Source: Denitromonas ohlonensis (GTDB taxonomy: Bacteria; Pseudomonadota; Gammaproteobacteria; Burkholderiales; Rhodocyclaceae). From it: a stretch of DNA of 64,000 nucleotides. The stretch's first letter is position 1. Each line of letters opens with the position of its first letter. Shown here piece by piece: positions 8,510-21,079 of the stretch. The notes beneath the pieces are model-generated. The model searched no databases. It was not told the origin of the DNA and saw nothing but the letters and a program-made list of their open reading frames with translations. A program made the translations under genes and the position numbers. The stretch covers positions 62,001 to 126,000 of the forward strand of contig NZ_VMNI01000001.1 in the NCBI RefSeq assembly GCF_007625205.1. Reading direction: 5' to 3'.

Positions 8510-9244
8510 ATGAAAGCCATTGTCACCGGCACCAGCCGCGGCCTGGGCGCCGCGCTTGCCACGACGCTGCTCGAACGCGGCATCCCCGTGCTCGGCCTGG
8601 CCCGCCAGCACAACCCGGCGCTGACACATGTCGGGCCGGGCTTGACACAGACCGCGCTGGACCTGTCGGACACCGACGCGCTGATGCACTGGCTGGCGAG
8701 CGACGAGATGGCCCACTTTCTGGCCGACGACGACGCCGTGCTGCTGATCAACAATGCCGGCACCGTCGAACCGGTCGGGCCGCTCGGCACGCAGGGCGGC
8801 GGCGCCATTGCACAAGCGGTGAGCCTGAACGTGACCGCGCCGCTACTGCTGGCCGATGCATTCGTGACCGCCACACCGGCCGCGCGCGACCGGCGCATCG
8901 TGCATGTGTCGAGCGGCGCGGCACGCAAGGCGTATGCGGGCTGGAATGTGTATGGCGCCACCAAGGCGGCGCTGGACCACCACGCCCGCGCGGTGGTCGA
9001 GGACGGTGTACCGGGGCTGCGCATTTGCAGTCTGGCGCCGGGGCTGGTCGACACCGATATGCAGCTGCAGGTGCGCAGCAGCGACGGCGCCCGCTTTCCG
9101 GCCCGTGAGCGCTTCGAGTCGCTCAAACGCGACGGCGCATTGATAGCGCCGGCGGTGTGCTCGGCGCAGTTGGTTCGCTATCTGTTGTCGGACGGTTTTG
9201 GCGCGGACGCGACCGCTGACTTGCGCGAACTGGCGTCCGCTTAG
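8510..9244 (+). CDS. SDR-family NAD(P)-dependent oxidoreductase
   Basis: A 244-aa classical short-chain dehydrogenase. It has the cofactor loop TGTSRGLG (residues about 6-13), NNAG (about 80), and catalytic Ser with YGATK (Tyr/Lys at about 150-154). The overall pattern (sepiapterin/benzil-reductase-like, with SLAPGLVDTDMQ) points to reduction of a small carbonyl compound, but the substrate is unknown. Its stop overlaps the stop of the convergent Rieske gene by 4 bp. Confidence 0.85.
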   Translation: MKAIVTGTSRGLGAALATTLLERGIPVLGLARQHNPALTHVGPGLTQTALDLSDTDALMHWLASDEMAHFLADDDAVLLINNAGTVEPVGPLGTQGGGAIAQAVSLNVTAPLLLADAFVTATPAARDRRIVHVSSGAARKAYAGWNVYGATKAALDHHARAVVEDGVPGLRICSLAPGLVDTDMQLQVRSSDGARFPARERFESLKRDGALIAPAVCSAQLVRYLLSDGFGADATADLRELASA

Positions 9245-9828
9245 GCGGCGTCGTCGTCGGCGCCGATGATCAACCGGGTGTCGCTGAGGTATTTGTGCGG
9301 CGGCACTTCGAGGTTGTCGGGCGCGGGCTTGTGCAGATACACCCGGCCGGCCAGATCGAAGGTGGAGCCGTGGCAAGGGCACAGGAAGCCGCCCGGCCAC
9401 TCCGCGCCCAGGCCGCTGGCTGCGCCGGTGCCGAACTTCTCGCTCGGCGAGCAGCCCAGGTGGGTGCAGATGCCTACCGCGACGAGGTAGCGCGGGTTGA
9501 TCGACCGGTGGCGGTTTTGCGCATACGCCGGCTGCATGGGGTGAGCCGACGCGGGGTCAACGAGGTCGGCCTCGTTGCCCTCAAGACTGGCGAGCATGGT
9601 GTCGGTGCGATGCAGGATCCACACCGGTTTGCCGCGCCACTCGACTGTCATCATGTCGCCCGGGGCGAGTTTGCCGATGTCCACTTCCACTGGCGCACCA
9701 GCGGCACGTGCGCGCTCTGAGGGTGTGAGGCTGGCCACCAGCGGTACCGCCACGCCAGCGGTGGCGGCAGCGCCCACGGCAGAAGTCGCGATCAGCAAGC
9801 GACGGCGGTCGGCAAGTGTGTCAGTCAT
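9241..9828 (-). CDS. petA: Rieske iron-sulfur subunit of cytochrome bc1 complex (stand-alone)
   Basis: A 195-aa ubiquinol-cytochrome c reductase iron-sulfur protein. The start ATG 9828 has GAGGTG 8 nt upstream. A Tat-like signal/anchor (DRRRLLIATSAVGAAATAGV) is followed by the Rieske domain with cluster-binding CTHLGC and CPCHGS boxes. It should carry the [2Fe-2S] cluster that takes electrons from quinol. In most betaproteobacteria it heads petABC; here cytochrome b and c1 genes are absent on both sides, so this is an extra or detached copy. A -24/-12-like promoter, IHF consensus and activator half-sites lie upstream (9966-10096). Confidence 0.88.
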   Translation of the reverse strand: MTDTLADRRRLLIATSAVGAAATAGVAVPLVASLTPSERARAAGAPVEVDIGKLAPGDMMTVEWRGKPVWILHRTDTMLASLEGNEADLVDPASAHPMQPAYAQNRHRSINPRYLVAVGICTHLGCSPSEKFGTGAASGLGAEWPGGFLCPCHGSTFDLAGRVYLHKPAPDNLEVPPHKYLSDTRLIIGADDDAA

Positions 9829-9965
9829 GAGTTCAGCACCTCGTTGTTCAGGTGGCGAACCCCGGCACCTGAACCCACACCTTGGGGGTTGGGGAGATCC
9901 ATTTGGCGACTCGTGAAGAGCCAAATTGACGCGGGTGTGCGCCGGGGCTTGCCTGTACTTCCTTA

Positions 9966-9981
9966 CTCAAGTCCCGTGCCA
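9966..9981 (-). promoter_or_regulatory. Candidate sigma-54 promoter of the Rieske gene
   Basis: On the minus strand the sequence is TGGCACGGGACTTGAG: perfect -24 box TGGCACG, correct spacing, and -12 box TTGA in place of TTGC. It lies 137 bp before the Rieske ATG. Nearly the same 16-mer (TGGCACGGAACTTGAT) precedes the ETHE1-like gene. The non-canonical -12 base is the main doubt. Confidence 0.6.
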
Positions 9982-9994
9982 GAACCACAAAACA

Positions 9995-10027
9995 AGGATA
10001 AACCATTGATTAACAATGACTTATCCT
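9995..10027. repeat. 33-bp AT-rich imperfect palindrome
   Basis: AGGATAA and TTATCCT form perfect 7-bp outer arms; inside them CATTG and CAATG flank ATTAA. On the minus strand it is followed by TTGTTTTG, so it may also end transcription of the sigma-54 activator gene. It contains the IHF-like site 9999-10011. Confidence 0.55.
9999..10011 (-). promoter_or_regulatory. IHF consensus site in the Rieske promoter
   Basis: The minus strand reads AATCAATGGTTTA, an exact match to the IHF consensus WATCAANNNNTTR. It lies between the -24/-12-like element and the upstream half-sites, about 45-55 nt before the expected transcription start, where DNA bending helps sigma-54 activators reach polymerase. Confidence 0.55.
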
Positions 10028-10056
10028 CTTTCTCTTCGATGCCGAGATACGCCAAA

Positions 10057-10096
10057 ACTGCCATTCAAGACACTAATTGGCAGTCAGGTGCTGTCA
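10057..10096 (-). promoter_or_regulatory. Candidate upstream activator site for the Rieske promoter
   Basis: Minus-strand TGACAG, 7 nt, then CTGCCAA; a perfect inverted repeat ACTGCCA / TGGCAGT spans 10057-10084. The CTGCCAA half-site is 95 nt from the -24 box, the same distance as at the cyd promoter. It lies just past the stop codon of the activator gene. Confidence 0.5.
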
Positions 10097-10111
10097 CTTC
10101 CGACACATCGG

Positions 10112-11467
10112 TCAGTCGCCGGCATCCGATGCGGTGCGCCCCGCGAGTCCATGCGCTTTCAGCTTCCGGTACAGCGTGCGTTCGGACACGCCGAGTCGGG
10201 TAGCCAGCTGCCGGCGGCTACCGGGATGCTCGGCCAGGGCAGCTTGCAAGGCACGACGCTCCAGGCCAGCCAGGCCCTCGGTGCCGCGGCTGTCGTCGCT
10301 GGCGAGTGTGCGTGTTGGCGCGGTCAGCGGCGCGTCACAGAGTCCGGGCGGGAGGTGTTCGAGGCCAATTTCTTCGCCGTCGCACATCAGGCTGGCGCGC
10401 TCAAGAATATTGCGCAGCTCCCGCACATTGCCCGGAAAGCGATAGGCGCTCAGGCAGCGCAGCACGGCGGGTGACAGACGCAGGGTCCGCGACGGCGCCA
10501 CACGCGTGAGCATGCTGGTCGCCAGTAGCGGAACGTCCTCGGCGCGATCGCGCAAGGCCGGGACCTCGATCGGGAAGGTGTTGAGGCGGTAGTAGAGGTC
10601 TTGGCGGAAACGGCCTTCGTCCACCATCTCGCGCAGCGATCGGTGCGTGGCCGACACCACACGGATATCGGCCGTGCGCAGTTCGGTGGCACCCACACGG
10701 CGGTAGGTGCCGGTCTCGAGCAGGCGCAGCAGCTTGACCTGCATGCCCAGGGGAATATCGCCGACCTCGTCGATGAACAAGGTGCCCCCGCTGGCCACTT
10801 CGACCAGACCCGGCTTGCGCGCCGTGGCGCCGGTGAAAGCGCCGCGCTCGTGACCAAACAGCTCGCTCTCGAACAAGGTTTCGGGCAGCCCGGAGCAATC
10901 GACGGCGATGAAGGGGCGATCGGCGCGGTGGCTGGCTTCATGCAGGGCGTTGGCGACCAACTCCTTGCCGGTACCGGACTCGCCCTGCAGCAACACCGTG
11001 GCCTCCGACGGCGCCACACGCGCCAGCAACCCGAGCATGGCCTGGAAGCGCGGTGCGCGTCCGACCAGGCCGGCCCGGTCAGACAGGCCACGTGCCACCT
11101 TGAGCGGCTCCATTTTCTCGACGAAAAACGCCACCTCTCCGCCCGCCTCGCGCACCGGCGACAGCTCGATGTTCACATACGCCTCGCCCTTGGGGGTGTG
11201 ATGCAGGTGCAGCACCCGCTCGCGCTGGCCGGACGCGAGGCTGCGCGCCAGCGGGCAGCTCTCGCCGGCCTGATCGCAGGGCACCGAATAGTGATGCGAG
11301 ACCTCGTAGCAGGTCCGCCCGATGACGCTGTGGGTCACGTCGTTGGCCTGCCGGTAGGCCGAATTGGCGGCCAGGATGCGGTAGTCCCGATCAAACAGGA
11401 TGTGTGGCTCGGGCAGCGTCTCGAGAAAGGATTTCAGTTCGATCAGCGGGCGGGGGTCATGGGCCAT
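10112..11467 (-). CDS. PAS-containing sigma-54-dependent Fis-family activator
   Basis: A 451-aa enhancer-binding protein. Residues 8-120 are a PAS domain with a Cys/His cluster (C53, H58, H59, C64, C71). Residues about 135-370 are the AAA+ core with Walker A GESGTGKE, the sigma-54-contacting GAFTGA loop, Walker B FIDEVGD and R-finger region. The C terminus holds a Fis-type HTH ([19 protein letters not shown]). No receiver domain, so the signal is probably sensed by the PAS. It is divergent from cydPABX and two more -24/-12-like promoters lie nearby, suggesting that it controls them. Half-sites 7-51 bp before its own start suggest autoregulation. Confidence 0.9.
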
Positions 11468-11473
11468 GGTGCG

Positions 11474-11518
11474 CTGCCAGAGTTGTCAGTCGTACTGCCA
11501 ATAATCTGCCGCTGCCAG
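11474..11518 (+). promoter_or_regulatory. Candidate upstream activator sites for cyd
   Basis: Repeated CTGCC half-sites (CTGCCAG 11474, CTGCCAA 11495, CTGCC 11506, CTGCCAG 11512). TTGTCAGT-CGT-ACTGCCAA at 11483-11501 forms an inverted repeat with one mismatch. CTGCCAA ends 95 nt before the TGGCAC box at 11597, matching the Rieske arrangement. Confidence 0.5.
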
Positions 11519-11561
11519 TCACGCGTCAAGCGTTGAGATGACGATCAACGTACGCAATGCC

Positions 11562-11575
11562 TTGTTTTACATCAA
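11562..11575 (+). promoter_or_regulatory. FNR/ANR-like box upstream of cyd (overlapping an IHF-like site)
   Basis: TTGTTTTACATCAA matches TTGAT-N4-ATCAA at 9 of 10 defined bases. An IHF-like CAATGCCTTGTTT (one mismatch on the reverse-orientation consensus) covers 11555-11567, so either protein could bind. Its position about 46-60 nt before the predicted start suits either. Confidence 0.4.
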
Positions 11576-11596
11576 GAATCGCATCAGCACAGCGCC

Positions 11597-11612
11597 TGGC
11601 ACGCGTCTTGTA
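11597..11612 (+). promoter_or_regulatory. Candidate sigma-54 promoter of cydPABX
   Basis: TGGCACGCGTCTTGTA: perfect -24 box TGGCACG, correct spacing, -12 box TTGT instead of TTGC. It is 34 bp before the cydP ATG and downstream of the sigma-54 activator gene's divergent start. No good -35/-10 pair is visible in this gap. Confidence 0.6.
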
Positions 11613-11645
11613 AGACGTGTAGCGACAGATAAGGAACACCAAGGC

Positions 11646-11828
11646 ATGAAAGACCGACAACTTGCCCGTGAGCTGATCCTCATCGTGATCGTCAAGGTGA
11701 TCGCGATTGCCGCCCTGTGGTGGGCCGTGGTGCGCGATACGAACACGACCGTGACCCCGCAGGCCATGGAAACGCGGATCAACCAGGGCGCGCAACCCAC
11801 TTCGCAAGGACATCCTCATGATCAGTGA
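11646..11828 (+). CDS. cydP: Cytochrome oxidase putative small subunit CydP
   Basis: A 60-aa protein with one membrane helix (residues about 8-28, LARELILIVIVKVIAIAALW) and a polar C terminus ending HPHDQ. Small single-helix proteins of this form precede cydA in many betaproteobacteria and are named CydP. ATG 11646 follows AAGG. Its last 11 bp overlap cydA, indicating coupled translation with the bd oxidase. Confidence 0.75.
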   Translation: MKDRQLARELILIVIVKVIAIAALWWAVVRDTNTTVTPQAMETRINQGAQPTSQGHPHDQ

Positions 11829-13374
11829 ACAACTCGTCGACCTGTCGCGGCTGCAGTTCGCCGCGACCGCGATGTACCACTTCCTGTTCGTTCCGCTCAC
11901 GATCGGGATGACGTGGATTCTGGTCATCATGGAGTCGGTCTATGTGATGACCGGCCTACCCATCTACAAGGACATGACCCGCTTCTGGGGCAAGCTGTTC
12001 GGCATCAACTTTGCCCTCGGCGTCACGACCGGCATCACGCTGGAGTTTCAGTTCGGCACCAACTGGGCTTACTACTCGCACTACGTCGGCGACATCTTCG
12101 GTGCGCCGCTGGCGATCGAGGGCCTGATGGCCTTCTTCCTGGAATCGACCTTCATCGGTCTGTTCTTCTTCGGCTGGGACCGCCTGTCGCGCAAACAGCA
12201 TCTGCTGGTCACGCTGATGATGGCGATCGGCACCAACCTGTCGGCGCTGTGGATCCTTATCGCCAACAGCTGGATGCAGAATCCGGTCGGCGCCGAGTTC
12301 TCGGCCACCACCATGCGCATGGAGATGGTGGATTTCTGGGCCGTGGTGTTCAACCCGGATGCCCAGGCCAAGTTCGTGCATACGGTGTCGGCCGGTTACG
12401 TGACCGGCGCCATGTTCGTGCTCTCGATCAGTGCCTGGTATCTGCTGCGCGGGCGTGACGTGGCCTTCGCCAAGCGATCGTTCCGCATCGCCGCCGCCTT
12501 CGGGCTGGCTTCGGCGCTATCGGTCGTCGTGCTCGGCGACGAGTCCGGCTACACCGTCGGCGAAGCCCAGCAGACCAAGCTGGCGGCGATGGAGGCAATG
12601 TGGGAGACCGAGCCGGCGCCGGCCGGGCTCAAGCTCATCGCCGGCATCAACGAGGCGGAGATGAAGAACGACTGGGAGATCGAGATCCCCTGGGTGCTGG
12701 GCCTGATCGGCACCCGCTCGACCGACACCGTGCTCCCCGGCCTCAAGGAGATCCTGGTCCAGAACCGGGCGCGCATCGTCTACGGCATCGACGCAGTCAA
12801 GGCCCTCGAGGCGGTCCGCCGCAACCCCGACGATAGTGCCGCGCGGACACGGCTTCATGCTCACCAAGCGGATCTGGGCTTCGGGCTGCTGCTCAAGAAA
12901 TATGTGACCGACATGGACCAGGTCACCCCCGAGCTGATCGACCGGGCGGCCGCCGACACCATCCCGCGCGTCACCCCGCTGTTCTGGACCTTCCGGCTGA
13001 TGGTGGCGCTGGGCTTTGCGCTCATTGCGCTGTTTGGACTGGCGACCTGGTACGCGGTCAAGGGCAATTTTGCCGAGCAGCGCTGGCTACTGCGCTGGGC
13101 GCTGTGGTTCCTGCCGATGCCGTGGATCGCCTGCGAAATGGGCTGGTTCGTGGCCGAGTACGGCCGCCAGCCCTGGACCATCTACGGCGTGCTGCCCACC
13201 CATCTGTCGGTCTCGACCCTGTCGGTGGAGTCGCTCTACGGATCGCTGGCGGGCTTCGTCGGCTTCTATACCGTCCTGCTCATCGTCGAGATGTACCTGA
13301 TGGTGAAGTTCGCCCGGCAAGGCCCCGGCAGCCTGGGCACCGGCCGCTATCTGAACGAAACCGCATCCGCCTGA
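11818..13374 (+). CDS. cydA: Cytochrome bd ubiquinol oxidase subunit I
   Basis: A 518-aa integral membrane quinol oxidase subunit carrying haems b558, b595 and d. Visible hallmarks are the N-terminal YHFLFVPLTIGM with a haem-ligand His near residue 21, HTVSAGYVTGAM with the second His, the quinol-binding GRQPW segment near residue 440, and a long Q-loop (residues about 250-370), so the L-type subfamily as in E. coli (522 aa). It reduces O2 to water at high affinity, and bd oxidases resist sulfide and NO. It overlaps cydP and is followed at 13 bp by cydB. Confidence 0.97.
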   Translation: MISEQLVDLSRLQFAATAMYHFLFVPLTIGMTWILVIMESVYVMTGLPIYKDMTRFWGKLFGINFALGVTTGITLEFQFGTNWAYYSHYVGDIFGAPLAIEGLMAFFLESTFIGLFFFGWDRLSRKQHLLVTLMMAIGTNLSALWILIANSWMQNPVGAEFSATTMRMEMVDFWAVVFNPDAQAKFVHTVSAGYVTGAMFVLSISAWYLLRGRDVAFAKRSFRIAAAFGLASALSVVVLGDESGYTVGEAQQTKLAAMEAMWETEPAPAGLKLIAGINEAEMKNDWEIEIPWVLGLIGTRSTDTVLPGLKEILVQNRARIVYGIDAVKALEAVRRNPDDSAARTRLHAHQADLGFGLLLKKYVTDMDQVTPELIDRAAADTIPRVTPLFWTFRLMVALGFALIALFGLATWYAVKGNFAEQRWLLRWALWFLPMPWIACEMGWFVAEYGRQPWTIYGVLPTHLSVSTLSVESLYGSLAGFVGFYTVLLIVEMYLMVKFARQGPGSLGTGRYLNETASA

Positions 13375-13387
13375 AGGAGTTGAAGAC

Positions 13388-14527
13388 ATGATCATCGATT
13401 ACCCGACCCTCAAGGTCATCTGGTGGCTGCTGGTAGGCGTTCTGCTGGTGGGTTTTGCCATCATGGACGGCCACGACATGGGGGTAGGCTCCCTGCTCCC
13501 CTTCGTCGGCCACAACGACGTCGAACGGCGCGTCATCATCAACACCGTCGGCCCGCACTGGGACGGCAACCAGGTGTGGTTCATCACCGGCGGCGGCGCC
13601 ATCTTTGCCGCCTGGCCGCTGGTCTATGCCACCGCCTTCTCCGGTTTCTACTGGGCCATGCTGGCGGTGCTGTGGGCGCTGTTCTTCCGCCCGGTGGGGT
13701 TTGACTATCGCAGCAAGATCCACCACCCGGCGTGGCGCAGCACCTGGGACTGGGGCCTGTTCGTGGGCGGCGCGGTGCCACCGCTGATCTTCGGCGTGGC
13801 CTTCGGCAATCTGCTGCAGGGGGTGCCCTTCCATTTCGACAACACCCTGGCGTCCTACTACACCGGCAGCTTCTGGGGACTGCTCAATCCCTTTGCCTTG
13901 CTGTGTGGCGTGGTCAGCACCGCGATGATCACCTTCCATGGCGCCATCTACCTGATGCACCGCACCGAGGGCGATATTTATCAGCGCAGCCGAACCGCGG
14001 TTCTGCTGTTCGGCGGGTTGTTGCTGGTCGGCTTCAGTCTCGCCGGCGTGTGGCTGCAATGGATTCCGGGCTATGCCATCACCTCGGTGATCGACCCCGC
14101 CGCCCTGCCCGACCCGCTCGCCAAAGAGGTAGTCCGAGCCGCCGGCGCCTGGATGCACAACTACCAGAGCCATCCCGCCACCATCGCAGTGCCGGCGCTC
14201 GCCTACCTGGGCATCATCGCCGCCCTGCTGCTGGCCGCAAAGGGGCGCACGCTGGCCGCCTTTGTCGCCTCGTCGATCGGCACGGCCGGCGTCATCGGCA
14301 CGGCCGGTGTGTCGATGTTCCCGTTCATCCTGCCGTCCTCGACCACCCCCAACGCCAGCCTCACGGTGTGGGACAGCGTCTCGAGCCATCTGACGCTCAC
14401 CATCATGTTCTTCGCCACCCTGATCTTCATGCCAATCATCGTTGCCTACACCAGTTGGGCCTACAAAGTGATGTCCGGCAAGGTCACCGCCGCCTATGTG
14501 CGCGAAAACAGCCACTCCGCCTACTGA
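13388..14527 (+). CDS. cydB: Cytochrome bd ubiquinol oxidase subunit II
   Basis: A 379-aa multi-spanning partner of CydA. It opens with hydrophobic helix 1 and the DGHDMGVG motif, followed by GPHWDGNQVWFITGGGAIFAAWP broken over helices 1-2, both typical of CydB; family length is 378-380. It has no redox cofactor of its own in most bd oxidases and stabilises the complex. AGGAG precedes the ATG by 9 nt, and cydX follows 16 bp after its stop. Confidence 0.97.
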   Translation: MIIDYPTLKVIWWLLVGVLLVGFAIMDGHDMGVGSLLPFVGHNDVERRVIINTVGPHWDGNQVWFITGGGAIFAAWPLVYATAFSGFYWAMLAVLWALFFRPVGFDYRSKIHHPAWRSTWDWGLFVGGAVPPLIFGVAFGNLLQGVPFHFDNTLASYYTGSFWGLLNPFALLCGVVSTAMITFHGAIYLMHRTEGDIYQRSRTAVLLFGGLLLVGFSLAGVWLQWIPGYAITSVIDPAALPDPLAKEVVRAAGAWMHNYQSHPATIAVPALAYLGIIAALLLAAKGRTLAAFVASSIGTAGVIGTAGVSMFPFILPSSTTPNASLTVWDSVSSHLTLTIMFFATLIFMPIIVAYTSWAYKVMSGKVTAAYVRENSHSAY

Positions 14528-14543
14528 CTTCGAGGAGACCCGC

Positions 14544-14672
14544 ATGTGGTACTTCACCTGGATTCTTGGCATCGGCTTCGCCGTGCTCCTGGCCATTCTC
14601 AACGCCCTGTGGGGCGAGCATGAAGACGCTCGCCAGTCGTCCCTCGCCCCCGACGGCCGTCCCGATGACTGA
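14544..14672 (+). CDS. cydX: Cytochrome bd oxidase small subunit CydX
   Basis: A 42-aa single-helix protein beginning MWYFTWILGIGFAVLLAILN, the CydX/YbgT signature, with ALWGEHED after the helix and a short polar tail. CydX sits at the CydA-CydB interface and is needed for haem stability. GAGGAG lies 7 nt before the ATG. Its last 8 bp overlap the next gene. Confidence 0.92.
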   Translation: MWYFTWILGIGFAVLLAILNALWGEHEDARQSSLAPDGRPDD

Positions 14673-14937
14673 CGCACCCGCTGCGTCCGCGCGCATCGCC
14701 TGGCTGCCGCTGCTCGCCGCCATCGCCATCGCGCTGGGCATCACCGCCAACCCCCGCTGGCTGACCGACAGCGCCGGCCATGCCGACCACGGGGCCGCGC
14801 TGGCGCTGTTCTGGGCCATGAGCGCCGGCTTCGTACGCGGCGTCGGGTTCGTGCCGCGTTTGCCGCCCCTGCGCTGGCTGCTGTCCGGCACGGCCTGCAG
14901 CGTCGGCGTGTTGCTGGCGCTGTGGCGGCTCGGGTGA
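14665..14937 (+). CDS. ybgE: Cyd operon protein YbgE
   Basis: A 90-aa membrane protein with three hydrophobic segments (residues about 11-28, 40-57, 70-87) and the family motif GFVRGVGFVPR between the second and third. Start ATG 14665 overlaps the end of cydX by 8 bp. YbgE proteins accompany cydABX; their exact role in bd oxidase assembly is not established. Confidence 0.75.
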   Translation: MTDAPAASARIAWLPLLAAIAIALGITANPRWLTDSAGHADHGAALALFWAMSAGFVRGVGFVPRLPPLRWLLSGTACSVGVLLALWRLG

Positions 14938-15005
14938 CACCCCCGCCATCCCTTCCGACAACTGGAGATTTTCATGACTGAACCGAACTCGTCGATCGCC
15001 TCTAT

Positions 15006-15428
15006 GTGCACATGGCCGAACGCCCCGACGCCCGCCCGGTGTGGCGGATGCATCACAGCGATCTGGCCGAGACCAAAGCCCGTCTGCGCGCCTTTCTCTC
15101 CGGCTGGCTGGGCGGCCCCGATCGCTTCACCGCCCGCTATGGCATGCCGCGCATGCGACGTCGCCATCTGCCGTTCTCGATCGGCTGCAGCGAGCGCGAC
15201 CAATGGCTGCAATGCCTGCGCATGGCGCTCGACGACACCGTGCCGGACACCGCCTTGCGGGCGGCGCTGGATGCCGCATTCACGGCCATGGCGGACCACC
15301 TGCGCAATCGCACCGAGCCAGACGCCGATCGCCACCCCCTGACCGGCGCATGCCTCGCATCGCCCGGTCGCACACCCGCGCCCGACGACGCCGCATGGCG
15401 GCCATGCCAGCCCGACTGCCATCAATGA
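15006..15428 (+). CDS. Group 2 truncated haemoglobin, 5' end lost or frameshifted
   Basis: From GTG 15006 this frame gives 140 aa with clear group 2 trHb features: FLSGWLGGP, RYGMPRMRRRHLPFSIG (proximal His F8), ERDQWLQCLRMAL and ADHLRNR. Homology extends upstream as ELVDRLY, yet the in-frame TGA at 14979 blocks it, and the ATG with a good ribosome site (14974, GGAG) is in another frame. The usual N-terminal GGE helix-A/B region is missing. A deletion plus frameshift near 14985 explains this. The C-terminal 30 residues beyond HLRNR are atypical. Such globins often protect terminal oxidases from NO. It may be a pseudogene. Confidence 0.65.
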   Translation: MHMAERPDARPVWRMHHSDLAETKARLRAFLSGWLGGPDRFTARYGMPRMRRRHLPFSIGCSERDQWLQCLRMALDDTVPDTALRAALDAAFTAMADHLRNRTEPDADRHPLTGACLASPGRTPAPDDAAWRPCQPDCHQ

Positions 15429-15466
15429 CAGCAGACGCTGCCAACAGCCTCGCACTGCCACTGCCA
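15426..15466 (+). promoter_or_regulatory. Candidate upstream activator sites for the ETHE1-like/octaheme unit
   Basis: TGACAG (15426), CTGCCAA (15438), CTGCCA (15455) and CTGCCA (15461) are clustered; CTGCCAA ends 93 nt before the TGGCAC box. The same TG(A/T)CAG-N5-7-CTGCCAA arrangement precedes the Rieske and cyd promoters. Confidence 0.5.
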
Positions 15467-15537
15467 TCCACCTCCACCGACCGCCGGCCGTGCGTCTAAC
15501 CCGCTGTTTTACTGCGGGTATTTCATGATGCAGTCCG

Positions 15538-15553
15538 TGGCACGGAACTTGAT
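15538..15553 (+). promoter_or_regulatory. Candidate sigma-54 promoter of the ETHE1-like/octaheme unit
   Basis: TGGCACGGAACTTGAT: perfect TGGCACG, correct spacing, TTGA for TTGC. It is 50 bp before the ETHE1-like ATG and differs from the Rieske element at two of sixteen positions. Confidence 0.55.
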
Positions 15554-15603
15554 ACAAGCGACTCAAGACGTCCTCGCTTGCGCGACCGCTCAAGGATTGC
15601 GGC

Positions 15604-16272
15604 ATGTACTTTCGCCAGATTTTCCATTCGCCCAGCCACTCGATCGGCTACCTGCTGGCCGACATGAGCGCCTGCGACGCGGTGCTGATCGACCCGCTGC
15701 CCGAGCAGTCCGAATTGCTGCTCGCGCTGCTGCAGGAACGCGACCTGCGCCTGCTCTACGTCCTGCGCACCCACATGCACTCGCCCGAACAGGGCCACTG
15801 CGGCGAGCTGTGCCGCTTCACCGGCGCCGAACTGGTGGTGGGGATCGACTCGCCCTACGACGGCCCGACGCAGCGCAAGGGGCATGGCGAGACGGTGGTT
15901 TTCGGCAATGAGGTGCTGCGGGTGCTGACCACGCCGGGGCACACCCCCGATTCGGTGTGCTTCCTGTGGCGCGACCGCCTGTTCTGCGGCGACACGCTGG
16001 AGATCGGCGGCTGCCGCCTGGATGCCGCGCAGAGCGACCCCGGGCAGTTGTACGACAGCGTCACCCAGCGGCTCTTCCTGCTGCCGGGCGAAACGCTGAT
16101 GTTCCCCGGTCATGACTTCAACGGCCGCACCGTGAGCACCATCGCCGAGGAGCGCCACCGCAATGCCGCCTTCTCGGCCGGCAGCCGCGAGCGCTTCCTG
16201 ACCGCCAATGCCCCACGGCCCGGACATGCCGTTCTGCCCGGCCTGAGTCCCCCATCCCCCCACAGCCCCTAG
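15604..16272 (+). CDS. ETHE1-like MBL-fold protein (persulfide dioxygenase type)
   Basis: A 222-aa metallo-beta-lactamase-fold protein. THMHSPE (residues 56-62) replaces the usual THxHxDH, so D and the last H are P61 and E62; H59, H113 (TPGHT) and D130 (CGDTL) remain. These three correspond to the single-iron ligands of ETHE1 persulfide dioxygenases, and the C-terminal MFPGHDFNGRTVSTI segment is also ETHE1-like. ETHE1 oxidises glutathione persulfide to sulfite. The protein begins a probable operon with an octaheme cytochrome, cytochrome b and rhodanese, consistent with sulfur chemistry. A glyoxalase-II-like hydrolase is the alternative. Confidence 0.72.
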   Translation: MYFRQIFHSPSHSIGYLLADMSACDAVLIDPLPEQSELLLALLQERDLRLLYVLRTHMHSPEQGHCGELCRFTGAELVVGIDSPYDGPTQRKGHGETVVFGNEVLRVLTTPGHTPDSVCFLWRDRLFCGDTLEIGGCRLDAAQSDPGQLYDSVTQRLFLLPGETLMFPGHDFNGRTVSTIAEERHRNAAFSAGSRERFLTANAPRPGHAVLPGLSPPSPHSP

Positions 16273-16342
16273 GGCGCCACGCATCATCCACACCACTGCA
16301 GAGCGCCCGGCCAGAGGCGTCTTACGAGGAGACAAAAACATC

Positions 16343-17929
16343 ATGCGACACCGAGCGATACACGCCCTCTTCGCGCTCGCCGTGCTGATGGCCGGCACGG
16401 CCGGCGCCAGCGGCAAGGCATCGACCGCCGACCACAGCAAGTTCGAGGCACTGGCCGGCCCCTTCGACAGCGGCCCGGCGGTCACCCGCGCTTGCCTCAA
16501 ATGCCACACCGAGGCCAGCCACCAGATCATGCAGACCCGCCACTGGACCTGGGACTACGCCAACCCGGCCACCGGCCAGCGCCTGGGCAAGAAGACCATG
16601 GTCAACGCCTTCTGCATCGGCGACCAATCCAACGAACCCTTCTGCCAGTCCTGTCACATCGGCTATGGCTGGAAGGACAAGCACTTCGACTTCAGCGACG
16701 CCAACAAGGTCGATTGCCTGGCCTGTCACAACACCGGCGAGTACACCAAACCTTTCGGCTTTGCCGGCAACCCGGTCACGGTGCGCAGCGAGTATCCGCC
16801 GGGCTCGGGCAAGTTCGTCGAACCGATCGACCTGGCCAAGATCGCCCAGGCCGTCGGCCCCACCCGCCGCGACAACTGCGGCGCCTGCCACTACAACGGC
16901 GGTGGCGGCGACGGCGTCAAGCATGGCGACCTGGACTCCTCGCTCAACACCGCGACGCACGAGCTCGATGTGCACATGGACAAGGACGGGCTGAACTTCA
17001 GCTGCAGCGACTGCCATGTGAGCGACCAGCACGCCGTGGCCGGCAGCCGCATCGCGATGACCGCCGCCGACCCGCACCCGGCCCTGCTGCGCGGCGAAAA
17101 GTCCGAGCGCAATCCGGCCGCCTGCCAGGCCTGCCATGGCGACAAGCCGCACAAGGAAAACCTGCTCGCCGCCGAACGCCTCAACGCGCACACCGACACC
17201 CTCGCCTGCCAGACCTGCCACATCCCGGCCTTCGCGCGCGGCGGCGTGTCCACCAAGATGGCCTGGGACTGGTCGCAAGCCGGCCAGCTCAGCGCCGAGG
17301 GCAAGCCCTTCCAGAAAAAGGACGAGCACGGCCATGTGATCTACGACAGCAAGAAGGGCGCCTTCGTCCATGGCCAGAACGTGACGCCGGCCTACCAGTG
17401 GTTCGACGGCCGGGTCACCTACACCTTGCAGGACGACACCATCGACCCGACGACCCGGGTGCCGATCAACGTCTTCCATGGCGCGCCGGGCGCGCCGGAC
17501 GCCCGCATCTGGCCGGTCAAGGTCTTCCACGGCCGCCAGCCCTACGACACCGAGCGCAAGACGCTGCTGGTGCCCAATGTGGCGGTGCCGGGCGATACGT
17601 CGTTTTGGTACAACTTCGACTGGCCCAAGGCCCTGGCCGCCGGCGCCGACGCCACCGGCGCCCCCTTCAGCGGCAAGTACGACTTCGTCGACACCCAGAT
17701 GCTGTGGCCGATCACCCACATGGTCGCGCCCAAGGAAAAGGCCGTCGCGTGCCACGAATGCCATGCCGACGGCGGCCGCCTGGCCGGCATCGAGGGCGTC
17801 TATATCCCCGGCCGCGACCGCAGCCCCTGGCTCGACCGCCTCGGCTGGCTCGCCGCCCTGGCCGCCCTGCTCGGCGTCAGCCTGCACGCCATCGCACGCA
17901 TCCTGACCCATCTGCGCAAGGAGGACTGA
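16343..17929 (+). CDS. Octaheme c-type cytochrome, tetrathionate reductase family
   Basis: A 528-aa exported multihaem cytochrome. It has a signal peptide (residues 1-24, ending GTAGA), then eight CxxCH sites (CLKCH, CQSCH, CLACH, CGACH, CSDCH, CQACH, CQTCH, CHECH), and a C-terminal membrane helix (about 495-515) that anchors it. The haem count and spacing match the octaheme tetrathionate reductase (OTR) family, whose members reduce tetrathionate, nitrite or hydroxylamine in vitro. It lies 70 bp after the ETHE1-like gene, and a cytochrome b starts 3 bp after its stop, probably linking it to the quinone pool. Direction of electron flow is not known. Confidence 0.9.
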   Translation: MRHRAIHALFALAVLMAGTAGASGKASTADHSKFEALAGPFDSGPAVTRACLKCHTEASHQIMQTRHWTWDYANPATGQRLGKKTMVNAFCIGDQSNEPFCQSCHIGYGWKDKHFDFSDANKVDCLACHNTGEYTKPFGFAGNPVTVRSEYPPGSGKFVEPIDLAKIAQAVGPTRRDNCGACHYNGGGGDGVKHGDLDSSLNTATHELDVHMDKDGLNFSCSDCHVSDQHAVAGSRIAMTAADPHPALLRGEKSERNPAACQACHGDKPHKENLLAAERLNAHTDTLACQTCHIPAFARGGVSTKMAWDWSQAGQLSAEGKPFQKKDEHGHVIYDSKKGAFVHGQNVTPAYQWFDGRVTYTLQDDTIDPTTRVPINVFHGAPGAPDARIWPVKVFHGRQPYDTERKTLLVPNVAVPGDTSFWYNFDWPKALAAGADATGAPFSGKYDFVDTQMLWPITHMVAPKEKAVACHECHADGGRLAGIEGVYIPGRDRSPWLDRLGWLAALAALLGVSLHAIARILTHLRKED

Positions 17930-17932
17930 GCC

Positions 17933-18580
17933 ATGTCGCACACCACCCCGATGACGCGCATCTACGTCTTCAAACGCTACGAGCGCTTCTGGCACTGGTC
18001 CCAGGCCGTGCTGGTGATCCTGATGCTGGTCACCGGTTTCGAGATCCACGGCAGCTACCACAACCTCGGCTTCGAGCGCGCGGTGCGCCTGCACACGCTG
18101 TCGGCCTGGACGCTGCTGGCGCTGTGGGCCTTCACCATCTTCTGGCAATTCACCACCGGCGAATGGCGCCAGTACATCCCCACCGCCAGCAAGCTGGTGG
18201 CCATGGCGCGCTACTACATGTTCGGCATTTTTGTCGGTGCCCCTCACCCCTATCACAAGACCGCGCTCAAGAAGCACAACCCGCTGCAGCGCCTCGCCTA
18301 TCTGGTGCTGCTGGCGCTGGTCTCACCGATCATCTGGGGCTCCGGGTTGCTCTACCTGTTCTATGCCTACTGGGGCGGCCTCGGGCTGGACCGCTGGCTC
18401 AGCCTGGAACAGGTGGCCACGGTGCACACCGCCGGCGCCTTCATGATGCTGGTGTTCGTCATCGCCCATGTCTATCTCACCACCACCGGCCACACGGTGT
18501 TCGCCCACATCAAGGCGATGATCACCGGTTGGGACGAGGTGGAGGAAGACCTGCGCGCCACCCCCGAAAAAACACACTGA
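17933..18580 (+). CDS. Cytochrome b/b6-type membrane subunit
   Basis: A 215-aa protein with four membrane helices (about 20-40, 58-76, 115-140, 165-185) and haem-ligand histidines in YERFWHWSQ, VRLHTLS and HVYLTTTGH, the pattern of thiosulfate-reductase/Ni-hydrogenase b-type subunits. It should connect the quinone pool with the periplasmic octaheme cytochrome encoded just before it (3-bp gap). The rhodanese gene follows 26 bp later. Confidence 0.85.
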   Translation: MSHTTPMTRIYVFKRYERFWHWSQAVLVILMLVTGFEIHGSYHNLGFERAVRLHTLSAWTLLALWAFTIFWQFTTGEWRQYIPTASKLVAMARYYMFGIFVGAPHPYHKTALKKHNPLQRLAYLVLLALVSPIIWGSGLLYLFYAYWGGLGLDRWLSLEQVATVHTAGAFMMLVFVIAHVYLTTTGHTVFAHIKAMITGWDEVEEDLRATPEKTH

Positions 18581-18606
18581 CATTTTCATTGAAAAAGGAG
18601 ATTCCC

Positions 18607-19212
18607 ATGCCCCGCCACTTTCCCACTGCGGTCGGTATCGTCCTCACCCTGGGCCTTGCCGCCCAGTGCCTCGCCGCCGATGCCCCGACCGACCCGAAAC
18701 AGCAGACATCGTGGGGCCTCTATGTCGACTCACGCGAGGCCTACGAGATGAAGACCGGCCCCGGCGGCGACGCCGTGTTGCTGGTGGATGTGCGCGACCC
18801 GGTCGAGATCATGTTCACCGGCTTCACCGACGTGGTGGATGTGAACATCCCCTTCATGACGGCCGACCGCAGCCGCTGGAACGACAAGAAGAACGTCTTC
18901 CTGATGCAGCGCAACGAAGACTTCGCCCCAGCCGTCGCCCGTGCGCTCGCCGCGCGCAAGCTCGGCAAGGACACGGCCATCGTCCTCATGTGCCGCTCCG
19001 GCGGCACGCGCGGCGCGCCCAGTGCCAAGGCCCTGGAGGGGCAGGGCTACGAGCGGGTCTATGTGGTGGTAGACGGCTTCGAAGGCCGCACTATCAAGGA
19101 CGGCGAACGCAAGCACTGGCGGCTCGTCGACGGCTGGAAGAACGCCGGCCTGCCGTGGAGCTACACCCTCAACAAGGCCAAGATGGCCGCGCAAGACGGC
19201 GCTCCCCGGTAA
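18607..19212 (+). CDS. Exported rhodanese-domain protein
   Basis: A 201-aa protein with a signal peptide (residues 1-24, AAQCLAA cleavage) and one rhodanese domain containing the active-site loop LMCRSGGTRG (Cys near residue 127) and DVRDPVEI at the N-terminal edge. Rhodaneses move sulfane sulfur between carriers. In the periplasm next to an octaheme cytochrome it may feed or accept persulfide sulfur. AAGGAG lies 7 nt before the ATG. Last gene of the probable operon. Confidence 0.85.
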   Translation: MPRHFPTAVGIVLTLGLAAQCLAADAPTDPKQQTSWGLYVDSREAYEMKTGPGGDAVLLVDVRDPVEIMFTGFTDVVDVNIPFMTADRSRWNDKKNVFLMQRNEDFAPAVARALAARKLGKDTAIVLMCRSGGTRGAPSAKALEGQGYERVYVVVDGFEGRTIKDGERKHWRLVDGWKNAGLPWSYTLNKAKMAAQDGAPR

Positions 19213-19311: not shown

Positions 19312-19324
19312 CAAGGAGTCAATG

Positions 19325-19972
19325 ATGGAACCGCAAGCCCCCTGCCCCGCCTTCCCCAGAATCAACGAACCCGCACCCGCCTTCAAGGCCGAGACCACCT
19401 TCGGGCCACGCAGCCTTGAAGACTATCGTGGCAAATGGTTGATCCTGTTCTCGCATCCGGCCGATTTCACGCCGGTGTGCACCACCGAGTTCATGGGTTT
19501 CGCCCGCGCCGCCGACACCTTCCGCAGCATGAACTGCGAGCTGCTCGGCCTGTCGATCGACAGCCTGTTCTCGCATCTGGCCTGGACGCGCAGCATCAAG
19601 CAGAACTTCGGCGTCGACATCACCTTCCCGATCATCGAAGACCTGAAGATGGAGGTCGCCAAGGCCTACGGCATGATTCACCCGGGCGCCGGTGATACCT
19701 CGGCGGTGCGTGCCACCTTCTTCATCGACCCCGAGGGCAAGCTGCGCGCGATGGTCTACTACCCGATGAGCAACGGCCGCTCGATCGATGAGTTCGTCCG
19801 CCTCCTGCAGGCGCTGCAGACCAGCGACGCCCACGGGGTCGCCACACCGGAGAACTGGAAGCCGGGCGAGGCGGTCATCGTGCCGCCCCCCAAGACCGCC
19901 GAAGCCGCCGAAAAGCGGGCCTCGGAGGGCTATGACTACGTGGACTGGTATTTCTCCAGGAAATCGCTGTAA
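19325..19972 (+). CDS. 1-Cys peroxiredoxin (Prx6 type)
   Basis: A 215-aa thiol peroxidase that reduces H2O2 and organic hydroperoxides. The peroxidatic Cys52 is in HPADFTPVCTTE; no resolving Cys pair is evident, and the long C-terminal dimerisation domain (YDYVDWYF) is that of the Prx6 branch. Two ATGs occur in tandem (19322, 19325); the second is preferred because AGGAG is 6 nt before it and only 3 before the first. It is a single-gene unit after the sulfur operon. Confidence 0.88.
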   Translation: MEPQAPCPAFPRINEPAPAFKAETTFGPRSLEDYRGKWLILFSHPADFTPVCTTEFMGFARAADTFRSMNCELLGLSIDSLFSHLAWTRSIKQNFGVDITFPIIEDLKMEVAKAYGMIHPGAGDTSAVRATFFIDPEGKLRAMVYYPMSNGRSIDEFVRLLQALQTSDAHGVATPENWKPGEAVIVPPPKTAEAAEKRASEGYDYVDWYFSRKSL

Positions 19973-20083
19973 CCCGGCCAGAGCGCGGCGGCGTCGCATC
20001 AAGCCAGCGTTGCCGTGCTGCCTCGGTCCATCCGCCGAGGCCACTGGCCCGACCTTGCCACTTCACTTACGCCGGATCCCGAC

Positions 20084-21079
20084 ATGAGCACAGCAAACCC
20101 CACCGACACACCTGCCGCCCCCGCCATCGAGAGCGCCCGACTGGCGCACTTTCCGGTCGCCCTGTTCTCCACCGTCATGGGCTCGGCCGGCCTGGCCATT
20201 GCCTGGCAGAAGGCGGGGCATCTGCTCGGCTGGCCGGCAGTCGTCGGCCAGGCGCTGACCGTGCTGGCCACGGGCCTGTTCGTGCTGATCGCGCTGCTCT
20301 ACACGCTCAAGCTCTTGCGCTACCCGGAGGCCGTCGCCGCCGAGCGCCGCCATCCGGTCAGGATGAACTTCTTCCCCACCTTTTCCATCGGCATCCTGCT
20401 GCTGGCCATCGCCTGGTATGGTGCCGCGCCCGAGGCGGCCCGCTGGCTGTGGGCAATCGGTGCGGTGCTGCACCTGGGCTTCACACTGATGGCCATGAAC
20501 AGCTGGATCCACCACACCCACTATGAGGTGACGCACCTCAACCCGGCATGGTTCATTCCGGTGGTGGGCAACATCATCGTGCCGGTGATCGGCGTGCATG
20601 TCGCGCCGCCCGAGGTGTCGTGGTTCTTCTTCAGTATCGGGCTGGTGTTCTGGATGGTGCTGATGGCGATCGTGATGTACCGCCTGTTCTTCCATGCGCC
20701 ACTGGCCTTGCGTCTGACGCCCACCCTGTTCATCCTGTTGGCGCCGCCATCGGTGGGCTTCATCGCCTACCTGAACCTGACCGGCGAACTCGACGCCTTC
20801 GCCCGCGTGCTCTACTACACGGCGCTGTTCCTGGGCATGTTGCTCGCGTCCAACGCGCTGCGCTTCTTCCGTGTGCCCTTCTTCGTCTCGGCCTGGGCCT
20901 ATTCCTTTCCGCTGGCCGCGCTGTCCATCGCCACGCTTCGCATGGCCGAGGCCACCGGTCTGGACGGCCTGCGCTGGCTGGGCGCGGCGCTGGTGGTGCT
21001 GACTACGGCAGTGATCGCCTTCCTCATGCTGCGCACACTGCGCGCCATCACCGCGGGCGCGATCTGCCAGCCGGAATAA
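20084..21079 (+). CDS. SLAC1/TehA-family anion channel or C4-type transporter
   Basis: A 331-aa membrane protein with about ten helices. HFPVALFSTVMGSAGLAIAW near residue 26 and the WIHHTHYEVTHLNPAWFIPVVGN segment mark the TDT/SLAC1 (TehA) fold, which passes anions or dicarboxylates. ATG 20084 is used because residues before it are unlike the family. The gene is monocistronic; the stop is 14 bp from the convergent stop of the GGDEF-EAL gene. Substrate is unknown; tellurite, sulfite and malate are handled by relatives. Confidence 0.8.
   Translation: MSTANPTDTPAAPAIESARLAHFPVALFSTVMGSAGLAIAWQKAGHLLGWPAVVGQALTVLATGLFVLIALLYTLKLLRYPEAVAAERRHPVRMNFFPTFSIGILLLAIAWYGAAPEAARWLWAIGAVLHLGFTLMAMNSWIHHTHYEVTHLNPAWFIPVVGNIIVPVIGVHVAPPEVSWFFFSIGLVFWMVLMAIVMYRLFFHAPLALRLTPTLFILLAPPSVGFIAYLNLTGELDAFARVLYYTALFLGMLLASNALRFFRVPFFVSAWAYSFPLAALSIATLRMAEATGLDGLRWLGAALVVLTTAVIAFLMLRTLRAITAGAICQPE

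Follow-up and report, generated by a model that had tools for sequence, protein, structure and literature searches.

A predicted FisR-type sigma-54 regulon joins cytochrome bd, an orphan Rieske protein and ETHE1-like/octaheme genes in Denitromonas ohlonensis

The 64,000-nucleotide (nt) stretch of Denitromonas ohlonensis DNA analysed here (the window; contig NZ_VMNI01000001.1 of assembly GCF_007625205.1, positions 62,001 to 126,000) encodes a FisR-like bacterial enhancer-binding protein (bEBP) at window positions 10112..11467. Around it lie three predicted -24/-12 promoters of sigma-54 type, preceding a stand-alone Rieske gene, the cytochrome bd genes cydPABX, and a unit of ETHE1-like, octaheme-type cytochrome, cytochrome b561 and rhodanese genes. 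This locus is probably a sulfane-sulfur-responsive regulon of FisR type, dependent on sigma-54 and integration host factor (IHF) and widened to these three sets of targets. Comparison of sequences establishes the sites, their conserved layout, their link to FisR and a conserved departure from consensus at -12. This is a well-supported predicted regulon with a known type of activator, unexpected respiratory targets and a largely conserved non-consensus base at -12.

Promoter architecture in the window

A sequence-only reading of the window had described three look-alike promoters, and each of its elements was found: the three 16-nt boxes, the TG(A/T)CAG and CTGCCAA half-sites with gaps of 95, 95 and 93 nt from CTGCCAA to TGGCAC, an exact IHF consensus at the Rieske promoter and a one-mismatch IHF-like site at cyd. 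The Rieske promoter, on the minus strand, comprises the box TGGCACGGGACTTGAG (9966..9981), with transcription predicted to start near 9955, the exact IHF consensus AATCAATGGTTTA (9999..10011) and putative activator half-sites TGACAG (10096-10091), CTGCCAA (10083-10077) and TGGCAG (10063-10058). The cydPABX promoter, on the plus strand, has the box TGGCACGCGTCTTGTA (11597..11612; predicted start near 11623), the reverse-oriented IHF-like site CAATGCCTTGTTT (11555..11567, one mismatch) and putative half-sites across 11474..11517 (CTGCCA 11474, TGTCAG 11484, CTGCCAA 11495 and CTGCCA 11512), which also lie directly upstream of the activator's own start codon. The ETHE1-like promoter, also on the plus strand, has the box TGGCACGGAACTTGAT (15538..15553; start expected near 15564), the weak IHF-like site TAACCCGCTGTTT (15497..15509, two mismatches, at -41) and putative half-sites across 15416..15466 (CTGCCA 15416, TGACAG 15426, CTGCCAA 15438, and CTGCCA 15455 and 15461). 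The half-sites at 11474, 11512, 15416, 15455 and 15461 (plus strand) and at 10063-10058 (minus strand) were additional to those first described, and all except 15416 fall within the ranges that had been proposed for footprinting.

TGGCAC at -24 and the GG-N10-G spacing of sigma-54 promoters are present at all three sites. The half-sites lie 77-123 nt above TGGCAC, and sigma-54 upstream activator sites are usually about 100-150 bp away according to the accessible part of PMC7057263. Upstream sites of this kind are here combined with a bEBP and with RpoN, for which the genome has one match; one IHF-alpha match exceeded its cut-off.

The combination of box and half-site is not due to chance, because all three matches to the composite CTGCCA-N82..111-TGGCACNNNNNTTG in the 4.42-Mb genome were the sites of this locus and the reversed control gave none. 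A looser composite returned the same three genome matches only, with two control matches. The box alone was rejected as evidence, being near chance both in window shuffles and against the reversed genome pattern: with one mismatch allowed it matched 8 times in the window against 5.6 expected, a count reached by 19 of 100 shuffles, and TGGCACNNNNCTTG had 19 genome matches against 6 for the reversed pattern.

The activator and its likely signal

The activator gene (10112..11467, minus strand) encodes PAS_4, sigma-54 activation AAA+ and HTH_8 domains by Pfam, with GAFTGA at residue 209, so that the AAA+ and Fis-type helix-turn-helix (HTH) parts of a FisR protein are both present. Its N-terminal domain holds Cys53, Cys64 and Cys71, the whole protein having seven cysteines. 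A loose regular expression for a CYxVSHxYxxPCDQAGExCP-like motif matched 93 of 129 activator matches, a count that includes one false match (L097) and scores N-terminally shortened matches as misses. The homologue on the megaplasmid of Cupriavidus metallidurans CH34 is 52% identical to the activator, carries the same cysteine motif and is divergent from a persulfide dioxygenase (PDO) gene (THVHADH) and an SQR-like gene, both named from their translations; the TGGCACGGGTTTTGAG box of that locus, with half-sites at -121 to -73, repeats the layout of the window's promoters. Li reportedly described the FisR regulon of Cupriavidus pinatubonensis JMP134 in 2017, and the numbering 53/64/71 is presumably that of the published Cupriavidus FisR cysteines, which the literature search did not confirm. 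Four FisR-like matches, three of them at E <= 1e-90, lie within one 20-kb stretch of another genome (L037, G065:C194).

In the accessible parts of the literature, FisR is described as sensing reactive sulfur via three cysteines (PMC9774590) and as activating through increased ATPase activity (PMC12170894), and in A. baumannii it drives a PDO/SQR operon, with CydAB drawn as upregulated under sulfide (PMC7315123). The locus described here resembles the FisR regulons of C. pinatubonensis JMP134 and A. baumannii (PMC7315123) in having a bEBP with an N-terminal sensor, AAA+ and Fis HTH domains, sigma-54-type promoters and sulfur genes nearby, and resembles Cupriavidus FisR as described in its three N-terminal cysteines. 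It differs from both regulons in its targets (cytochrome bd, an orphan Rieske protein and an octaheme-type cytochrome), in a genome without a close SQR and in the altered metal motif of its ETHE1-like protein. In A. baumannii the response to sulfide is mediated by a FisR without these cysteines, which counts against the proposed sensing, and no statement that this FisR controls cyd was found in the accessible text (PMC7315123); for these reasons the window protein is called only FisR-like. Its assignment to the FisR type goes beyond the sequence-only reading and points to reactive or sulfane sulfur as the likely signal. In the literature searched for sulfide-dependent control of cyd through sigma-54, the A. 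baumannii paper was the only one that looked pertinent in the part available, and no FisR operator was found described, although the original 2017 Cupriavidus paper may hold one.

There is a lesser but real chance that FisR and sigma-54 control the units as proposed and respond to another signal, such as nitric oxide, limiting oxygen, or the redox or quinone state. Such signals would suit cytochrome bd and a truncated globin too, a truncated-globin-like gene and cyd adjoin in several loci, and the ETHE1-like protein is without part of the HxHxDH motif. SQR is a known FisR target, and the CH34 SQR-like query had no match in the window and a best match elsewhere in the genome of only 27% identity (E 9e-11), a result that also weighs against the sulfane-sulfur reading. 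These points are opposed by the recurrence of the three-cysteine motif, in which partial matches were scored as misses, by the PDO and SQR-like genes beside the CH34 homologue, and by the rhodanese and ETHE1-like genes inside the unit itself, so that reactive sulfur is preferred as the signal. SQR was rejected as a member of the window's regulon, no close SQR having been found in the genome.

Conservation of the layout in relatives

Of 150 family genomes, 68, counting that of the window, had an activator orthologue (E <= 1e-90). Larger neighbourhoods were read in the 40 best-scoring of the other 67, together with the best 80 loci from a search of genome contigs (the named loci), many of which are distant or cut. 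One locus (L051) nearly duplicates the window, and the two were both included in the counts for half-sites, half-site clusters, IHF sites and the -12 base. Gene order was highly variable, yet Rieske, cyd, ETHE1-like and octaheme genes recurred round the activator. In the window and the 120 loci, a box lay within 350 nt of 20 of 26 Rieske, 22 of 37 CydA, 6 of 8 CydP and 14 of 43 ETHE1 matches, and of 1/13 octaheme, 1/13 TDT, 1/7 Prx6, 2/12 truncated-globin and 0/6 rhodanese matches.

Half-sites were strongly concentrated upstream of these boxes, 150 being found at -140..-70 of 61 promoters against 10.3 (standard deviation 3.1, maximum 19) in 300 shuffles, with sites less than 400 nt from a locus end left out of the count. 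When half-site clusters were defined without the promoter pattern, they occurred in 42 of 76 upstream regions of family relatives. The commonest gapped word in these clustered regions was GGCA-N6-TTG, present in 36 of the 42 (top counts of 5-8 in 20 shuffles that kept single-base composition only). The promoter pattern itself was found in 38/42 clustered regions against 2/34 unclustered ones, and the four exceptions had a one-mismatch box. When the window's genus was excluded and only the first listed site was kept for each gene in each genus, 21 sites from 12 genera remained; 17/21 of them had two or more half-sites, compared with 0/21 for the control interval -400..-330. The shared sites are not simply a product of recent common descent, as the -150..-60 stretch has only about 27% ungapped identity between loci (L051 left out), a figure taken at fixed offsets and lowered by small shifts as well.

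IHF-like sites showed a similar regularity. The IHF consensus with at most one mismatch was found within -80..-15 of 23/41 family promoters (2.1 expected, maximum 6 in 200 shuffles), against 0/41 in the control stretch -300..-235, and 13 of the 16 reverse-oriented sites start at -41 or -42, the window's cyd site among them. The Rieske site of the window is in forward orientation at -30 and its ETHE1 site has two mismatches; the IHF-like position of the window promoters recurs in relatives. The conservation check proposed with the sequence-only reading was largely passed, with TGGCAC, TTG and CTGYCA/TGRCAG recurring before Rieske, cyd and ETHE1-like genes, and its suggestion that the PAS-AAA-Fis protein drives three sigma-54 units gains support from the conserved sites in relatives with an activator orthologue.

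The composite pattern was also associated with the activator across genomes, with 98 matches in 68 genomes that have FisR against 49 in 82 that lack it (p 5e-6); the control matches numbered 17 and 16, respectively. Several results weigh against the proposed regulon or narrow its extent. Since 49 matches against 16 control matches occurred in genomes without FisR, the pattern is not exclusive to FisR-bearing genomes; this excess may stem from more distant FisR proteins or from other sigma-54 systems. About half of the composites in FisR-bearing genomes (50/98, by eye; 33 genomes) are near FisR, in a list that omits one match 11 kb away (G144) and counts overlapping matches of one promoter apart. 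No box was found in 6/40 family neighbourhoods (L040, L043, L047, L048, L050 and L058) or in 49/80 named loci (a by-eye count, in which many loci are distant or cut). Likewise, 29/43 ETHE1, 12/13 octaheme, 12/13 TDT, 6/7 Prx6, 10/12 globin and all 6 rhodanese matches had no box within 350 nt, although some of these may be internal operon genes.

The composites remote from FisR would also suit a different activator or a repressor as owner of the half-sites, with FisR merely adjoining the units, the motif being so far a predicted operator. This is improbable given that FisR remains beside the sites despite repeated rearrangement of the genes, that composites are enriched in genomes bearing FisR, and that the same half-sites occur in the CH34 locus, which has other target genes. 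FisR is retained as the predicted regulator of the three units.

Outside Betaproteobacteria, a FisR-like gene on a Pseudoalteromonas xiamenensis plasmid (L176) is divergent from a cluster made up of cydP, a feature of 2.7 kb annotated as cydB, cydX and ybgE, and a TGGCATAGGACTTGTA box precedes cydP, giving a further FisR-cyd pairing.

The base at -12

The window promoters have A, T and A at -12 in place of the C that sigma-54 promoters strongly, though not universally, prefer, a departure at all three sites that speaks against sigma-54 use. The same departure prevailed in the family (n=41: A 26, T 8, C 6, G 1) and in the set of one site per genus and gene (n=21: A 12, T 4, C 4, G 1), in which C was found at 4/8 Rieske promoters and 0/7 cyd promoters; the named loci had C 9, A 8, G 2 and T 1. 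The sequence-only reading had regarded the odd base as either a local variant or a reason for doubt. With A or T in 34/41 family sites, the base is mainly conserved, which favours the variant, and the doubt has for the most part fallen away.

Among the family matches listed, C was present at 1/10 FisR-linked sites against 73/140 unlinked ones (p 0.018), and the one-per-genus FisR set differed from the same 140 sites as well (p 0.005). Sites outside the regulon can have A or T at -12 too, as do 56 of those 140 unlinked sites (A 29, T 27; a further 11 have G), a set that includes random matches. Within the family the departure is thus characteristic of the regulon without being exclusive to it, and the named loci do not show it as a rule. 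A genome-wide shift of sigma-54 preference was rejected: the 15 other TGGCACGNNNNTTG sites in the window genome have C 7, T 4, A 3 and G 1 at -12, and the five judged by eye to lie before plausible genes (L079, L082, L085, L087 and L088) all have C.

In E. coli, C occupies -12 in 38/42 intergenic sense chromatin immunoprecipitation (ChIP) sites and A or T in 4/42, namely T in pspA, pspG and ygeW and A in hydN, as given in the accessible part of PMC4591121. As pspA, pspG and hydN are flagged there as confirmed promoters, the missing C was not taken as excluding sigma-54. Like the window's promoters, pspA and pspG, which are served by PspF, have upstream activator sites and lack C at -12, where both have T, and pspA shares IHF help and a TGGCACG -24 box (PMC3709507, PMC4591121), so that a promoter of this kind can work; sensing, signal and target genes differ, as does the dominance of A at -12 in this regulon. 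That the boxes are not promoters at all, TGGCAC being an extra half-site similar to TGGCAG, unbound by sigma-54, with sigma-70 transcription below FisR-like binding, is very unlikely despite the rarity of a deviating -12 C in E. coli (PMC4591121), given the confirmed exceptions pspA and pspG (T) and hydN (A), a fixed GGCA-N6-TTG that emerged without selecting for that word, and a regulator that is a bEBP with GAFTGA.

Predicted target genes

The stand-alone Rieske protein (UQCR Fe-S by Pfam; 9241..9828, minus strand) is 69% identical to the Rieske protein preceding cytochrome b elsewhere in the genome. Second Rieske genes in Rubrivivax gelatinosus and Rhodospirillum rubrum are reported to be functionally redundant (Ouchane 2005 and Schneider 2005, as cited in the accessible part of PMC6256036). 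The window gene is like them in lying outside the bc1 cluster and unlike them in having a predicted FisR/sigma-54 promoter, which offers a possible reason for its existence. Alternatively, the Rieske protein could function in an octaheme/cytochrome b assembly, as suggested by the gene order Rieske, octaheme OTR-like, cytochrome b561 in three loci (L055, L056 and L090), where the products possibly form a joint complex. The predicted leader of the window's Rieske gene (9829-9955) is 127 nt long, with a strong fold and an ATTTGGC/GCCAAAT hairpin, and box-to-gene distances in relatives are long too (117-198 nt).

The cyd unit (11646..14938, plus strand) comprises cydP (from 11646), cydA (11818-13374), cydB (13388-14527), cydX (from 14544) and a ybgE-like gene (about 14620-14938). 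CydA and CydB were identified by Pfam, and CydP, CydX and the YbgE-like protein were named from their translations, in agreement with the annotated Pseudoalteromonas cluster. Cytochrome bd is a sulfide-resistant oxidase, as stated in the accessible part of PMC8148161. Downstream, at 14974-15428, lies a gene whose translation resembles a truncated globin; its apparent ATG and its body are in different frames, so that either the start is uncertain or the sequence contains an error.

The third unit (15604..19212, plus strand) begins 4 kb from the activator with the ETHE1-like gene (metallo-beta-lactamase fold, 15604-16272), followed by genes for a multiheme, octaheme OTR-like cytochrome (16343-17929), cytochrome b561 (17933-18580) and rhodanese (18607-19212). 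Pfam assigns the first two to Lactamase_B and Cytochrome_cB; the names ETHE1-like and octaheme OTR-like are presumptive, adopted from the sequence-only reading and general knowledge. In place of HxHxDH the ETHE1-like protein has RTHMHSPEQ, with DH lost; it retains the first His, the TPGHT His and the GDT Asp, which we take to be the iron ligands. The loss is shared with many family relatives, and in several more distant FisR loci the enzymes are of the ordinary THVHADH type. After the rhodanese gene, a 1-Cys peroxiredoxin gene and a SLAC1/TDT transporter gene occupy 19322-21079, and Prx6 and TDT recur near FisR in other loci.

Proposed mechanism and implications

In the proposed scheme the binding sites of FisR (10112-11467) would be the TGRCAG/CTGYCA half-sites, with TGTCAG as a further form, some 75-125 nt upstream of the boxes, and a bend introduced by IHF near -42 or -30 would bring FisR to the RpoN-containing RNA polymerase. 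The FisR ATPase would be turned on when persulfide or polysulfide modifies Cys53, Cys64 and Cys71, and the three units would be induced together: cydPABX as a sulfide-tolerant quinol oxidase, the spare Rieske protein, which may take the place of Rieske in bc1, and the ETHE1-like/octaheme/cytochrome b/rhodanese unit for sulfur handling. The fisR gene may itself be autoregulated from the cyd half-sites. Most likely, a sulfide-tolerant outlet for quinol electrons would be induced at the same time as enzymes that handle sulfur.

A broader and more tentative proposal, which we regard as possible rather than probable, is that a single sensor of sulfane sulfur governs the whole respiratory chain (bd oxidase, substitute Rieske, octaheme cytochrome and ETHE1-like enzyme) in Rhodocyclaceae and in some Betaproteobacteria close to them, and that A or T at -12, a core-promoter variant typical of the regulon and kept by selection, alters the hold of sigma-54 in the closed complex.

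The predicted regulon supplies a candidate FisR operator, in the form of its half-sites, and a naturally occurring collection of sigma-54 promoters with a substitution at -12, a position that is usually invariant. It would tie the choice of respiratory enzymes genetically and directly to the sensing of reactive sulfur, and it suggests an explanation for orphan Rieske genes that can be tested. The layout, shared with many relatives, suggests a concerted switch of respiration in these bacteria as reactive sulfur accumulates.

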